Assembly (NCBI GenBank): GCA_905234785.1
Contig: CAJOIP010000002.1
Location: 62,001 to 126,000 of the forward strand
Direction: 5' to 3'
Origin: an uncultured Eggerthellaceae bacterium
Lineage (GTDB): Bacteria > Actinomycetota > Coriobacteriia > Coriobacteriales > Eggerthellaceae
DNA length: 64,000 nt
Part shown: positions 51,869 to 58,864 of the stretch, piece by piece
Layout: the number at the start of each line of letters is the position of its first letter
Position numbering within the stretch: position 1 is the stretch's first letter
Program-made: the position numbers and the translations under genes
Notes under the pieces: model-generated
Seen by the model: the letters and a program-made list of their open reading frames with translations, nothing else
The model's database searches: none
What the model was told of the DNA's origin: nothing

Positions 51869-52249
51869 CTATAGAGCGAGCTTCCAGAGGCCGTGGAGGT
51901 TGCAGTACTCGAAGACCTCGAGCGGCTTCTGGCCGCCGAGCACGATTTCCGCATGAGGGGCCTCGCCGGGCTTCAGGCAGCGGGCGATGACGCCTTCCTC
52001 GGTCACGACGTAGATCCACTGGATGAAATGGGCTTCTTCCATCGGATGGTCGACGCTGCCGACGTTGACGACGATCTTGTCGCCTTCGAGCGTGACGACG
52101 GGAACGTGCTTTTCCAGGGCGGCGTCGGTCGTGTTCGGCTCGATGACCTGCATGGGCTCGCCACAGCATGACAGCTGGCCGCCGCCATCGGCAACTTTCA
52201 CGACGATGTTGCCGCACTTCGCGCACCGGTAAAACGTCGATCTCTTCAT
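51869..52249 (-). CDS. Desulfoferrodoxin / superoxide reductase
   Basis: N-terminal rubredoxin-like CAKCGNIV..CCGEPM, EKHVPVV, VGSVDHPMEEAHFIQWI, YCNLHGLWK. Confidence 0.94.
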   Translation of the reverse strand: MKRSTFYRCAKCGNIVVKVADGGGQLSCCGEPMQVIEPNTTDAALEKHVPVVTLEGDKIVVNVGSVDHPMEEAHFIQWIYVVTEEGVIARCLKPGEAPHAEIVLGGQKPLEVFEYCNLHGLWKLAL

Positions 52250-52362
52250 GTGAACCACCTTTCATCCTCGTCTTAACCGCTGTAGATATCATAAATGAAA
52301 ATAAGGGCCGCATCGCCAAGATGCTACCCTTTTGCAAACCACAACCCCGGCAATACGCCCAA

Positions 52363-52904: not shown

Positions 52905-54854
52905 GTGGAACTCATTTCGTTTCTTATTCTGTTTCCCTTGGTAATCGCGGTGTTGCTGCTGTTCGTGAAGGCCGATTGGCCTCGCAACGTCATCGTGGGC
53001 ATGTCGGCTGCGGTCATTGCCGTGGCGTCGATCGCGCTTTCGGTGCGCTACATCGGCGCGCCGTGGATCGGGTTCGAGTTCTCGTCTGAGGTGGCGGACT
53101 ACATCGGCACGACCATTGGCGTCGTCATCGCCGCAACGGTCATCGGGTTCGGCGTGAAGTACAAGAACTACTTCGCCGTCGTGCTCGCCGCCATCCAGGT
53201 CGTCGGATCGCTCGTGTTCGAGTTCGGGTTCGCGCACAGCGTGCATGTCCCCGTCGGGCTGTACATCGACTCGCTTTCCATCGTCATGGCGCTCATCATC
53301 GGCGTCATTGGCAGCGGCATCTGCGTGTACGCGCTCGGGTACATGATGGACTTCCAAAAGCACCTCGACGATCATGGGGAAGAAGAAGGGCTGACCGAGC
53401 TTCAGCGCCGCGACCGTCGTCCGACGTTCTTCGCGCTCATGTTCGTGTTCCTGTCGGCTATGTACGTCATCGTCTTCTCGAACAACATGACGTGGATGTT
53501 CACCGGCTGGGAAGTCACGACGGTGTGCTCGTTTTTGCTCATCGCCTACACGCGCACCGAAGAGGCCATCCGCAACGCGTTCCGCCAGATCATCATGAAC
53601 ATCGCCGGCGGCATCGGCTTTCTGGTGGCGCTGTTCTTGGCCGTCATCCTGGCTAACACGCTCTCGTTCGAGCGCTTCGTGCTCATCGGCCTCGAGCATC
53701 CCGAGATCGTCTCGGTTGCCGTGTGCGCGCTGGCGTTCGCGGGCCTCACGAAGTCGGCCCAGATGCCGTTCCACACCTGGTTGCTCGGCGCCATGGTCGC
53801 TCCCACGCCCACGTCGGCGTTGCTTCATTCGTCGACGATGGTGAAAGCTGGCGTGTTCCTGCTCATCAAGCTCGCGCCGCTGTTCATGGTGTGCACCGTT
53901 CCCGCGAGCATGGTCGTGCTCGTGGGCGGCTTCACGTTCATGCTGTGCTCGTTCATGGCCATCTCGCAGTCGAACGCCAAGCGCGTGCTCGCGTACTCGA
54001 CCATCGCGAACCTCGGCCTGATCGTCGCTTGCGCGGGCGTCGGCAGCCCCGAGGCCATCTGGGCGGCCACGCTGCTCGTCATCTTCCACGCTGCCGCCAA
54101 GTCGCTGCTGTTCCTGTGCGTCGGCACGGCCGAGCATCACATCGGCAGCCGCGACATCGAGGACATGGACTTGCTGTTCGACCGCATGCCGCGTTTGGCC
54201 CGCTTCATGATGCTCGGCATCATGTGCATGTTCATCGCCCCGTTCGGCATGCTCATCGCGAAATGGGCGACGCTCGTGTCGTTCGTCGAGGCCGGGCAGC
54301 TCATCCTTATCCTGTTGCTCGCGTTCGGCTCGGGCGCCACGTTCATGTTCTGGGCGAAGTGGCTCGGCAAGCTTTCGGGCATTGCCGGGTCGCCTGAGAA
54401 CGTCGAGCTGACGGTCCATCCTTCCGAATGGATTTCGCTCGTCATCATGGCGTGCATCGCGGTCGTTGCCTGCATCGCGCTGCCGATCGTCTCCAATGCG
54501 TTCGTCGAGCCTTACATCGTCAGCGTTTTCGGCGTGCTCGGGCGCGACGTGACGATCGACAACCTCTGGATTTCCTCGATCCTAGCCGTCTTCGTGTTCG
54601 TCGTGCTGTTCGGCGGCGTGCGGTCGTCGAAGAAGAAGCGCGTGAGCGCGTATCTGTCGGGCGTGTCCGTCGACGACGCCACGCGCACGTACCGCAACAG
54701 CCTGTCGGGCGAATCCGTCGCCACGTCGCGCAACCTGTACCTCGACTCGTACTTCGGCGAGGACAAGATGCGGCCGATAGGCGAGGCGTTATGCGGCGCC
54801 ATCATAGTAGTGGCCCTCCTGGCGAGCGGCCTTGTCGTCCCGCCGATTCTGTAA
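52905..54854 (+). CDS. Ech-type hydrogenase subunit A / NuoL-like proton-translocating subunit
   Basis: ~14 TM antiporter-like protein, FSNNMTWMFTGWEVTTVCSFLLI, AQMPFHTWLLGAMVAPTPTSALLHSSTMVKAGVFLLIK. Confidence 0.9.
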   Translation: MELISFLILFPLVIAVLLLFVKADWPRNVIVGMSAAVIAVASIALSVRYIGAPWIGFEFSSEVADYIGTTIGVVIAATVIGFGVKYKNYFAVVLAAIQVVGSLVFEFGFAHSVHVPVGLYIDSLSIVMALIIGVIGSGICVYALGYMMDFQKHLDDHGEEEGLTELQRRDRRPTFFALMFVFLSAMYVIVFSNNMTWMFTGWEVTTVCSFLLIAYTRTEEAIRNAFRQIIMNIAGGIGFLVALFLAVILANTLSFERFVLIGLEHPEIVSVAVCALAFAGLTKSAQMPFHTWLLGAMVAPTPTSALLHSSTMVKAGVFLLIKLAPLFMVCTVPASMVVLVGGFTFMLCSFMAISQSNAKRVLAYSTIANLGLIVACAGVGSPEAIWAATLLVIFHAAAKSLLFLCVGTAEHHIGSRDIEDMDLLFDRMPRLARFMMLGIMCMFIAPFGMLIAKWATLVSFVEAGQLILILLLAFGSGATFMFWAKWLGKLSGIAGSPENVELTVHPSEWISLVIMACIAVVACIALPIVSNAFVEPYIVSVFGVLGRDVTIDNLWISSILAVFVFVVLFGGVRSSKKKRVSAYLSGVSVDDATRTYRNSLSGESVATSRNLYLDSYFGEDKMRPIGEALCGAIIVVALLASGLVVPPIL

Positions 54855-54872
54855 AGGGAGGTGCCAGATATC

Positions 54873-55757
54873 ATGTTGTTCGTCACCGAGAATTTCATCT
54901 TCACGCTCATCGGCACCGTTGCGTTCGCCATCCTCGCGCCTGTCGTGGGCTGCCTGCTCGCCGGGCTCGACCGCATCATCTCGGCCCGCATGCAGGGCCG
55001 TGTCGGGCCCCCGCTCTTGCAGCCGTACTACGATGTGCGCAAGCTCATCGCGAAAGACGACGTCACCGTGTCCGGCGTCGACGGCGTGTACATGACGTGC
55101 GCGCTCGTGTTCACGGCGTTCGCAGGCGGCATCTTCTTCAGCGGCGGCAACCTGCTGATGAGCGCCTTCGTCATCACGATGGCGGCGCTGTTCTTCATCA
55201 TGGCGGCGTACTCGTCGCGGAGCCCCTTCGCCGAGCTGGGCGCGGGCCGCGAAGCCGTGCAGGTCATGTCGTACGAGCCGATGGTGCTCCTCATGGCCGT
55301 GTGCTTCTTCATGGCGGCGGGATCGTTCAACGTGGGCGAGACATTCTGGCTGAAGCTGCCGGTCATCTGCTACACCATCCCGGCGTTCATCGGCTTCTTG
55401 TTCATCCTGACCATCAAGCTGCGCAAGTCGCCGTTCGACCTGTCGACGTCGCATCATGCGCACCAGGAGCTCGTCCGCGGCACGACGACCGAGATGAGCG
55501 GCAAGACACTTGCCAAGGTCGAGGTCATGCACTGGTGCGAAACGGTGCTGTTCCTCGGCTGGACGGGCATGTTCTTCATCTGGGGCAACCCGGTCTCGAT
55601 CGTGCTCGCCATCGTCGCCGCGCTTGCGGCGTGGTTCTTCGAGATCTGGATCGACAACAACTTCGCACGCGTGAAGTGGCAGGCCATGCTGAAGTGGGCG
55701 TGGATCGTGGCGCTCGTCTGCGGCGGCATCAACATCGTCCTTTTGGCGTTCATTTAG
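54873..55757 (+). CDS. Ech-type hydrogenase subunit B / NuoH-like
   Basis: GLDRIISARMQGRVGPPLLQPYYDVRKL, SSRSPFAELGAGREAVQVMSYEP; ATG at 54873 after GGGAGGTG. Confidence 0.9.
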   Translation: MLFVTENFIFTLIGTVAFAILAPVVGCLLAGLDRIISARMQGRVGPPLLQPYYDVRKLIAKDDVTVSGVDGVYMTCALVFTAFAGGIFFSGGNLLMSAFVITMAALFFIMAAYSSRSPFAELGAGREAVQVMSYEPMVLLMAVCFFMAAGSFNVGETFWLKLPVICYTIPAFIGFLFILTIKLRKSPFDLSTSHHAHQELVRGTTTEMSGKTLAKVEVMHWCETVLFLGWTGMFFIWGNPVSIVLAIVAALAAWFFEIWIDNNFARVKWQAMLKWAWIVALVCGGINIVLLAFI

Positions 55758-55770
55758 GAAGGGGAGCAAC

Positions 55771-56214
55771 GTGGGTTACGCATCTAAATCCCCCTGGGTC
55801 ATCCATTACGACGCGTCGAGCTGCAACGGCTGCGACATCGAGGTTTTGGCGGCGCTGTGCCCCGGTTACGACGTCGAGCGCTTCGGCATCATCAACACGG
55901 GCAATCCGAAGCATGCCGACATCTTCCTCGTCACGGGGTCGGTCAACGAACGCAACATCTCGGTCGTGAAGCAGATTTACGACCAGATGGTCGAACCGAA
56001 GGTTGTCGTCGCATGCGGCATTTGCGCATGCACGGGCGGCATCTTCCATGACTGCTACAACGTCATTGGCGGCGTTGACAAGGCCATACCGGTCGACGTG
56101 TACGCGCCCGGCTGCGCGGTGCGCCCCGAGGCGATCATCGACGCGGTGGTGCAGGCCATCGGCATCCTCGACGAGAAGTCGAAGGCCCTCCAAGCTGCGA
56201 AGAAGGGAGCATAG
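55771..56214 (+). CDS. Ech-type hydrogenase small subunit / NuoB-like
   Basis: DASSCNGCDIEVLAALCPGYDVERFGI, VACGICACTGGIF, VDVYAPGCAVRPEAII: iron-sulfur ligands. Confidence 0.92.
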   Translation: MGYASKSPWVIHYDASSCNGCDIEVLAALCPGYDVERFGIINTGNPKHADIFLVTGSVNERNISVVKQIYDQMVEPKVVVACGICACTGGIFHDCYNVIGGVDKAIPVDVYAPGCAVRPEAIIDAVVQAIGILDEKSKALQAAKKGA

Positions 56215-56216
56215 CC

Positions 56217-57152
56217 ATGGCATTCCAACAGGAATTCGTGCCCTTGGAGCTCGAGCAGCTGCATAGGGCGGCGGCAGTCCTGAAAGTAGAAGGCTGGCGC
56301 TTCATCCAGACGCATGCCGTGAACACCGACGACGGCATCGACTTGTACTACTCGTTCATGAAAGACGGACGCGTGGTGAACTACCGCGTGGCCGGCGTGC
56401 AAAAGGGCCAGGCGGTTCCTTCCATCACCGACCTGTTCCTAGCTGCCTTCGTGTTCGAAAACGAGGCCCGCGAGCTGTTCGGCGTCGACATGCGCGATAT
56501 CGCCATCGACTTCGACGGTGCGCTATACGCGCCTGCGCAGGCCGAGCCGATGACGATCATCACGCCCGAGCAGAAAGCCGCCCGCGAAAAGGCCAGGAAA
56601 GCCGCCGAGGCCAAGGCTGCCAAGGACGCTGCTCCTGCCGAGGCGCCTGAAGGCGCCGCACCGGCAAAGGGCGGGTTCGTCATGACGCCCGAGCGCCGTG
56701 CGCGCCTCGACGCCAAGCTCGCCACCATGTCGCCGGAAAAGGTCGCCAAGGTCGAAGCCGCCCTGAAGGCGCGTGAAGCCGAAGCGGCCGCAAGTGGGTC
56801 GAACACCGCATCCGGTTCTGCACAAGCGCAGGCTTCTGCTCCTGCGGCTGATTCGCGAGAAGCCACCCAGGAAAAGGCTGCAGGTGCCACGGCAGCTACA
56901 GCCGCCGCAAAAGATGCCGATCTCGAGGCCAAGCTCGCCACCATGGATCCCGCGAAGGCGGCTAAAGTTCGCGCCGCCCTTGCCGGCAAGGCAGCTGCTT
57001 CAGAGGCGGCTGTTGAAGCCGCGCCCGCCGCTGCCGAGGAGCCTTTGGCGGAACGGTTCGCCGACGAGCAGCTCGAAGCGCTCATCGGCCTCATGGATGA
57101 CGAAAAAGCAGCCGTCGTGAAGAAGGCTCTCAACATGAAAGAGGGTAAATAG
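56217..57152 (+). CDS. Ech-type hydrogenase NuoC-like subunit with long Ala-rich C-terminal extension carrying three helix repeats
   Basis: N-terminus NuoC/EchD-like (SITDLFLAAFVFENEARELFGVDM); C-terminal extension KLATMSPEKVAKVEAALKA, KLATMDPAKAAKVRAALAG, ADEQLEALIGLMDDEKAAVVKKALNM. Confidence 0.85.
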   Translation: MAFQQEFVPLELEQLHRAAAVLKVEGWRFIQTHAVNTDDGIDLYYSFMKDGRVVNYRVAGVQKGQAVPSITDLFLAAFVFENEARELFGVDMRDIAIDFDGALYAPAQAEPMTIITPEQKAAREKARKAAEAKAAKDAAPAEAPEGAAPAKGGFVMTPERRARLDAKLATMSPEKVAKVEAALKAREAEAAASGSNTASGSAQAQASAPAADSREATQEKAAGATAATAAAKDADLEAKLATMDPAKAAKVRAALAGKAAASEAAVEAAPAAAEEPLAERFADEQLEALIGLMDDEKAAVVKKALNMKEGK

Positions 57153-57153
57153 C

Positions 57154-58242
57154 ATGGGCAAGAAATCGGTCATCCCGTTCGGGCCGCAACACCCGGTCCT
57201 GCCCGAGCCGCTTCACCTCGACCTCGTGGTGGAAGACGAAGTCGTCATCGAGGCGGTTCCGCAGATCGGCTTCGTGCACCGCGGACTCGAGCGCCTCGTG
57301 CAGACGAAGGACTACAACCAGTTCATTTACGTTGCAGAGCGCATCTGCGGCATCTGCGCGTTCGGGCATTCCATGGGCTACGCGGAAACGGTCGAGCGTC
57401 TCATGGGCGTCGAGATCCCCAAGCGAGCCGAGTACCTGCGGGTCATCTGGCATGAGCTTTCCCGCGTGCATTCGCATATCCTGTGGCTCGGCCTCGCCGC
57501 CGACGCGTTCGGCCATGAAGCGCTGTTCATGCACTGCTGGCGTTTGCGCGAGCGCGTGCTCGACCTGTTCGAGAAGACGACCGGCGGCCGTGTCATCTTC
57601 TCGGTCGTGAAGGTCGGCGGCGTGCAGCGTGACATCGACAAGGACATGTTCGACCAGTTCATCAGCACGCTCGAGGGCATCAAGGACGAGTACAAGCAGA
57701 TCTGCGATGCATTCCTCACCGATCCGTCGGTTTACAACCGCACGGCAGGCGTCGGGCTCATTCCGACCGAAGACGCCTTGAACCTCAGCATGGTCGGCCC
57801 GTTTGCGCGTGCTTCGAACGTGGGCTACGACGTGCGCACGCTCGGCAACGGCGCCTACGGGGACCTGTCGGATTTCAGCCCGATCGTCTCGCAGAACTGC
57901 GATTGCTATGCGCGCATGGAGGTCCGTGCCGCCGAAGTGCCGCAATCGATCGACATCATCGAGGAGCTCATCGCGAAGATTCCCGCCGGCGACATCGCGG
58001 TGCCCGTGAAGGGCAGTCCCGCCGTCGACTCCGAGGCGTGCAACGTCGTGGAGCAGCCGCGCGGCGAATGCTTCTACTATGCCAAGGGCAACGGCACGAA
58101 GTACCTCGACCGCATGCGCATGCGCACTCCGACCTCGCAGAACCTCGCCGGCATGGCGGTGGCGCTCGAAGGCTGCGACGTGGCGGACGTGAACATGATC
58201 GTGCTGACGATCGACCCCTGCATCAGCTGCACGGAAAGGTAG
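57154..58242 (+). CDS. Group 4 [NiFe] hydrogenase large subunit (EchE-like)
   Basis: FGPQHPVLPEP, ERICGICAFGHSMGYAE (N-terminal CxxC), terminal DPCISCTER (C-terminal CxxC): both Ni-ligating motifs retained, distinguishing it from NuoD. Confidence 0.92.
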   Translation: MGKKSVIPFGPQHPVLPEPLHLDLVVEDEVVIEAVPQIGFVHRGLERLVQTKDYNQFIYVAERICGICAFGHSMGYAETVERLMGVEIPKRAEYLRVIWHELSRVHSHILWLGLAADAFGHEALFMHCWRLRERVLDLFEKTTGGRVIFSVVKVGGVQRDIDKDMFDQFISTLEGIKDEYKQICDAFLTDPSVYNRTAGVGLIPTEDALNLSMVGPFARASNVGYDVRTLGNGAYGDLSDFSPIVSQNCDCYARMEVRAAEVPQSIDIIEELIAKIPAGDIAVPVKGSPAVDSEACNVVEQPRGECFYYAKGNGTKYLDRMRMRTPTSQNLAGMAVALEGCDVADVNMIVLTIDPCISCTER

Positions 58243-58246
58243 TCTC

Positions 58247-58756
58247 ATGGGAGCATTCAAACTGGGGAAGATGACCTTCGGGTCGCTGTTCAAGAAGCCC
58301 GAGACGGTGCTGTACCCCGTCGTGACGAAACCGCAGCCGGCAGGCTTGAAGGGCCATATCGCCATCGACGTCGACGACTGCATCCTCTGCGGCATGTGCG
58401 ACCGCTCGTGTTCGACCGATTGCATCAGGGTCGACAAGCAGGCGCGCACGTGGACGATCGACCGCTTGCAATGCGTGCAGTGCGGTTACTGCATCACCGT
58501 GTGCCCGAAGAAGTGCCTGTCGATGGATCCGAATTACGCGCCGGCTTCGACTGTCCACGAAGCCGACGTGTTCGCGGTTCCCGAACAGGCGAAGCCGGAG
58601 AAGAAAGCCGAGACTAAAACACCCGAGCCCGCGCCCGCTGTGGAAAAGGCTGCGGAATCGCCCGTCGAGCAACACGCGGACGAGCAGCTCGTCGCTCTCA
58701 TAGGGCTCATGGACGAGGAGAAGGCCGCGAAGGTGCGCTCTGCACTGAGCATGTAG
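58247..58756 (+). CDS. Ech-type hydrogenase 2[4Fe-4S] ferredoxin subunit (EchF/NuoI-like) with C-terminal helix motif
   Basis: CILCGMCDRSC and CVQCGYCITVCPKKC clusters; C-terminal ADEQLVALIGLMDEEKAAKVRSALSM. Confidence 0.9.
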   Translation: MGAFKLGKMTFGSLFKKPETVLYPVVTKPQPAGLKGHIAIDVDDCILCGMCDRSCSTDCIRVDKQARTWTIDRLQCVQCGYCITVCPKKCLSMDPNYAPASTVHEADVFAVPEQAKPEKKAETKTPEPAPAVEKAAESPVEQHADEQLVALIGLMDEEKAAKVRSALSM

Positions 58757-58764
58757 CGTGAATG

Positions 58765-58864
58765 TGATGCACGGGAGGGGGGCTACTGCATCATTTTGCG
58801 GTTAGGAACGGTCATTCGAAAGCTTTCTGGCAAAATGATGCACTTGCTCCCCTCCCGCGCATCA
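58765..58864. repeat. Long inverted repeat, 35-bp arms (about 4 mismatches), 30-nt loop
   Basis: TGATGCACGGGAGGGGGGCTACTGCATCATTTTGC (58765-58799) / GCAAAATGATGCACTTGCTCCCCTCCCGCGCATCA (58830-58864). Confidence 0.9.

Follow-up and report, generated by a model that had tools for sequence, protein, structure and literature searches.

A short tail module, modelled as a helical hairpin, on EchD, EchF and NfnA-like proteins of Coriobacteriia-type gut bacteria

How anaerobes divide low-potential electrons among H2, NADPH and proton pumping is determined by Ech and Nfn, and the physical organisation of enzymes of this type is a largely open question. The window (the whole 64,000-nt stretch of DNA analysed here) carries a hydrogenase operon in which a NuoC-like and a NuoI-like subunit bear near-identical 26-residue tails. 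Why would two different subunits of one enzyme carry the same tail? A preliminary description of the window gave the position and sequence of both tails and counted 20 identical residues of 26, all of which proved exact. The module is real, specific, conserved and apparently undescribed, on an enzyme of a known kind (Ech), and the 26-residue tail offers a concrete genetic handle on enzyme organisation in human and ruminant gut bacteria.

Six open reading frames on the forward strand (52905-58756) encode, as judged from Pfam matches, NuoL-, NuoH-, NuoB-, NuoC-, NuoD- and NuoI-like proteins in that order (Table 1), and NuoEFG are absent from this six-gene operon. Gene content and order identify it, at the level of sequence, as an Ech-type energy-converting hydrogenase, a type whose predicted activity is ferredoxin-dependent H2 evolution with ion pumping. 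The gene order and the CxxC large subunit are like those of the Ech-type group 4 [NiFe] hydrogenase (EchABCDEF) and of Pyrococcus MBH (6cfw), whereas the modules are extra to this enzyme family. The PDB sequence closest to EchE is 6cfw_L, the alpha subunit of the Pyrococcus membrane-bound hydrogenase (E 5e-70). EchD has a NuoC/MbhK-type fold in a Foldseek comparison and relatives in 55 of 61 genomes, and the cluster motifs of EchF are CILCGMCDRSC and CVQCGYCITVC. Most of the nearest relatives that bear a name are metagenome assemblies from the ruminant gut, under the labels Eggerthellaceae or Coriobacteriaceae. A desulfoferrodoxin gene (51869-52258) lies a short way upstream of the operon on the opposite strand, with a tRNA-Pro in between.

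Table 1. Genes and tail elements of the ech operon, in positions of the window.
Feature	Position	Strand	Description and support
echA-like	52905..54854	+	NuoL/Mrp-antiporter-type membrane subunit; PF00361, PF00662
echB-like	54861..55757	+	NuoH-type membrane subunit; PF00146
echC-like	55771..56214	+	NuoB-type small subunit; PF01058, NuoB family
echD-like	56217..57152	+	NuoC (30 kDa) domain aa 1-115 and 196-aa Ala-rich tail; PF00329 E 1.5e-6
EchD tail up to C3	56562..57059	+	Lys/Ala helix aa 117-137, then inter-module linkers; linkers pLDDT <50
module C1	56694-56771	+	EchD aa 160-185, RRARLDAKLATMSPEKVAKVEAALKA; profile match; helices 158-170, 173-194
module C2	56910-56987	+	EchD aa 232-257, KDADLEAKLATMDPAKAAKVRAALAG; profile match; helices 224-242, 245-264
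module C3	57060-57137	+	EchD aa 282-307 of 311, ADEQLEALIGLMDDEKAAVVKKALNM; helices 278-291, 295-307
echE-like	57154..58242	+	NiFe large subunit; both CxxC motifs, ERICGICAFGH and DPCISCTER
echF-like	58247..58756	+	NuoI-type 2x[4Fe-4S] ferredoxin subunit, linker, terminal module; Fer4_7 E 6.4e-10; NuoI/MbhN-like
EchF linker	58571..58675	+	aa 109-143; pLDDT <50 at 117-143
module F1	58676-58753	+	EchF aa 144-169, extreme C-terminus, ADEQLVALIGLMDEEKAAKVRSALSM; helices 146-154, 157-168

The profile of the module (A1) finds four copies in the whole genome to which the window belongs, three on EchD and one on EchF, and no others. The motif had been placed at two C-termini, which is correct for EchF; the last EchD copy, C3, is near-terminal, being followed by four residues (KEGK), and the two internal EchD copies, C1 and C2, had been missed. 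C3 and F1 are identical at 20/26 amino acids and 54/78 nucleotides, and C1 and C2 share 75% nucleotide identity over 59 nt (DNA repeat family D1). In 300 composition-preserving shuffles of both tails, the top 26-mer identity is 12; these shuffles, together with the genome-wide specificity, rule out chance or composition as the source of the likeness. The Ala/Pro/Glu-rich linkers that had been described as joining the tails to their proteins are supported. The module has the consensus DAxLEAKLAxMDPEKAAKVRAALxA and a length of about 24-26 residues. Its most constant positions among the EchD copies of the family are K8, P14, K16, V20, A23 and A26, with L, I or M at 5, 9, 12 and 24; judged by hydrophobic moment against shuffles, the amphipathicity of its helices is not significant.

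The AlphaFold model of EchD (single chain, with 13 EchD sequences) places a Lys/Ala helix after the NuoC domain and then three helix pairs, with pLDDT mostly 70-81 in the pairs and <50 in the segments between them. The EchF model consists of the ferredoxin-type core, a disordered linker and a single terminal helix pair with pLDDT of about 80. The module is thus modelled as a helical hairpin with a D-P-E type turn, repeated one to five times on EchD, in place of the single terminal helix proposed earlier. Because the overall pTM is low (0.30 for EchD and 0.42 for EchF), module-module packing cannot be read from these models. The LDPEKAA pattern presumably resembles the MgtE_N / FliG-type helical hairpin repeats, which likewise have a helix-turn-helix with a D-P-E type turn; the module has no Pfam match to any such family even at E = 10, and no significant Pfam match of any kind. 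Its best match among PDB sequences, not significant, has an E of 0.38, EchD has no NCBIfam match, and Foldseek matches the NuoC domain alone, with nothing convincing for the EchD tails. No description of such a tail was found for Ech, for group 4 or membrane-bound hydrogenases, for the Eggerthella hydrogenase or for Nfn in the open-licence literature, represented mostly by titles and abstracts; an E. lenta study, in excerpt, names the Ech complex once and does not comment on tails (PMC10234575).

The profile of the module has matches in 111 of 140 genomes from the family and in 148 of 400 from the class; those listed for the class all lie in two families of one order (f1 and f10). Among 397 genomes sampled across the phylum, there are 28 matches, all in the same two families; none was found in the sampled actinobacterial genomes outside them. 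Only three kinds of carrier occur among 32 genomes with every match listed (matches with E below about 1e-4 counted): EchD (82 proteins examined, 1-5 copies each), EchF (26 proteins, mostly with a single copy) and an NfnA-like protein (9 proteins in three genera, g5, g18 and g23). This excludes a random genus-wide occurrence on unrelated proteins, and it extends the proposal of a motif on two hydrogenase subunits, which is right for EchD and EchF, to a third carrier. The tails were said to be no part of the NuoC and NuoI folds, and indeed none of 174 modules overlaps a catalytic-domain match. Judged from these matches, the module occurs only on NfnA and on EchD and EchF, two subunits of the peripheral (cytoplasmic) arm; that so few proteins carry it, and that these are linked in function, fits the suggested docking or assembly element. 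Many Ech operons within the same family have no module at all, so the module is dispensable for the Ech enzyme, and six genomes checked (G148, G207, G188, G039, G048 and G042) have neither a close Ech gene nor the module.

Several loci depart from the arrangement in the window. In G144 (L122, G144:C1:1530500-1536500), three modules lie on EchF and one on EchD, the reverse of the window. The EchF C-terminus of G138 (L140) is formed by two near-identical tandem units, EPTGDPDMDAKLAKLPYxKAVKxRAAFMAKQ, and the EchD of this genome has no detectable module. In the EchD of G007 (L115 / L150), the module-bearing end is out of frame with the remainder, which probably reflects a frameshift or a mistake in assembly. 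L162 (G122) is a similar case.

The third carrier contains FNR-type FAD/NAD domains and the motif DGTGMCGGCR, and an NfnB-like gene lies directly 3´ of the module-bearing nfnA in L129. The [2Fe-2S] motif of Nfn is given as DGTGMCGxCR in excerpts of a review of this enzyme, which describe the C-terminal extension of NfnA as a [2Fe-2S] domain and a long helix and mention no further module (PMC6405883). The protein is like the NfnA subunit of NfnAB (NADH-dependent ferredoxin:NADP+ oxidoreductase), and the module is extra to it here: NfnA orthologues from other genera are 75-77% identical, align only to residue 305-306 and lack the module. A close NfnA was not found in the genome of the window. 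Conversely, the module is on NfnA in G127 and G085, assemblies that are 86% and 85% complete, and a close Ech was not found in either. Ferredoxin is the established redox partner of both Ech and Nfn (PMC5861303, PMC6405883). The occurrence of the module on NfnA, which has its substrate ferredoxin in common with Ech, suggests a local clustering of ferredoxin-linked enzymes or the recruitment of a shared partner.

We tentatively favour, at somewhat less than even confidence, a reading of the module as a multivalent helical-hairpin sticker by which ferredoxin-linked enzymes assemble or cluster. The module would act as a protein-protein sticker, present several times per complex on long flexible spacers. 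Such stickers might pair hairpin to hairpin or bind one common partner, and their contacts could hold the Ech peripheral arm together during assembly and cluster hydrogenases. In some genera, they could also bring NfnAB beside Ech, allowing a local exchange of reduced ferredoxin. Counting against this reading are the Ech operons that lack the module, the genomes with it on EchF only or on NfnA where a close Ech was not found, the unassociated carriage on EchD and EchF, and helices whose amphipathicity is not significant. The fuller version, in which a sticker that only two families of Coriobacteriia-type gut bacteria possess gathers Ech and NfnAB into a ferredoxin-channelling membrane cluster, is doubtful. 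EPYC1 and CsoS2 repeats form multivalent sticker-and-spacer scaffolds with helical repeats on disordered linkers, and terminal encapsulation peptides are a further known case. By analogy, the tails may be compared with these systems in that short helical repeats of variable number sit on flexible linkers at free termini and are shared by several enzymes, but the carriers here are membrane-enzyme subunits and not a scaffold or compartment cargo, and a sequence relation is not claimed.

The main rival to the general sticker, and a less probable though real possibility, is that the modules each recruit the same soluble protein and not each other. The partner would most plausibly be the ferredoxin used by both Ech and NfnAB, or else a maturation or assembly factor common to them, and its local concentration would be raised at the electron-entry side. 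A common ligand would select a similar sequence on different subunits, and the carriers have ferredoxin in common as a redox partner; Lys8, Lys16, Lys19 and Arg21 are, moreover, conserved at 79-95% among the EchD copies of the family. However, the net charges of the window copies (-3 for C3, -2 for F1 and +4 for C1) do not support a basic clamp for acidic ferredoxin in all copies, which leaves a simple electrostatic clamp a misfit for some of them.

The tails might instead reflect a neutral or weakly selected expansion, in which easily duplicating GC-rich, Ala-rich sequences are tolerated at free C-termini. A copy number of 0-5, the many operons without the module, an EchD tail of about one-third Ala and the similarity of copies as DNA all suit such an expansion, as does codon sharing in the second family, where identical codons between EchD and EchF are modestly more frequent than expected and the duplication may be more recent. 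The pattern of conservation weakens it and renders it unlikely. In a comparison of the window with its closest relative, amino acid identity in EchD is 0.92-0.96 for the modules, 0.94 for the core and 0.66 for the linkers; the corresponding values in EchF are 0.77 for the module, 0.93 for the core and 0.49 for the linker. By these comparisons, the modules are conserved nearly like catalytic domains, while the linkers drift. EchD modules scarcely vary at V20, A23 and K16, and the precise pattern of 22-26 residues recurs across two families with no other carrier proteins. 

In the genus, the EchD and EchF copies have 93 identical codons in 203 identical residues, compared with 94.6 expected from codon usage, which rules out recent duplication or gene conversion behind the near-identity; because codon sharing is not above expectation, the likeness between EchF and EchD in the genus is taken to be old and held at the protein level. 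On an EchE tree of 91 genomes, 7 changes are needed to explain which EchF proteins carry the module, and well-supported branches force at least 4 of them; therefore, the EchF module has been gained (or lost) several times.

The EchF copy tends toward likeness with the EchD copy of its own genome: MPPEKAAKFRAA occurs on both proteins in G144, and TAGLDPxRAEKVRA is in both copies in G083. An unusual V-to-F change (KFRAA) is also common to the EchD and EchF modules of G144. Across 11 species of the genus, the EchF copy resembles its own C3 more than the C3 of other species by +0.62 BLOSUM units per site (p ~5e-5, and p <= 0.0072 after dropping up to four species), in a permutation that ignores the species tree and has C1 and C2 as its sole internal controls. 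These controls are mostly without an own-genome excess, with p = 0.03 for C2 in one subset.

This tracking of the last EchD copy would agree with an intracomplex clasp, in which the EchD and EchF copies pair and so fasten the peripheral arm within a single Ech complex, as would the adjacency of their counterparts in related complexes; NuoC- and NuoI-type subunits are close together in complex I and MBH. The distribution of the module weakens a strict clasp and makes it the least likely reading, since the commonest pattern is a module on EchD only (most genomes), EchF alone was found to carry it in G138 and G080, and NfnA carries it too. Strict co-occurrence on EchD and EchF was tested and is not significant: carriage on the two proteins shows no statistical association (24/26 versus 55/65, Fisher p = 0.50), so a simple EchD-EchF clasp has no universal role. 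The specific tethering of these two subunits that had been proposed is therefore not borne out, and the general sticker is preferred, with the common soluble partner as its main rival.

In the second family, module-less EchF tails (L187-L197) carry another conserved Lys/Ala helix, KRELTPEQQARVEAARKAAAAKKAAK. It resembles the EchD helix that follows the NuoC domain, at a level not clearly above composition. For the shared pattern TPEQxAxxEAxRKAA of the EchD and second-family EchF tails, pairs from the same genome differ from shuffles by no more than 1-2 SD, and the Lys/Ala helix as a second element common to both tails is only suggestive.

Directly after echF, a 35-nt inverted repeat (58765-58864) is 89% complementary around a 30-nt loop, with a folding energy of -63 kcal/mol (z -8.8). 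It is one of dozens of copies of a palindromic element of about 100 bp in its own genome (98 matches, with both strands and half elements counted), and none is present in five other genomes of the genus. Its appearance is that of a REP- or MITE-like element that has spread recently.
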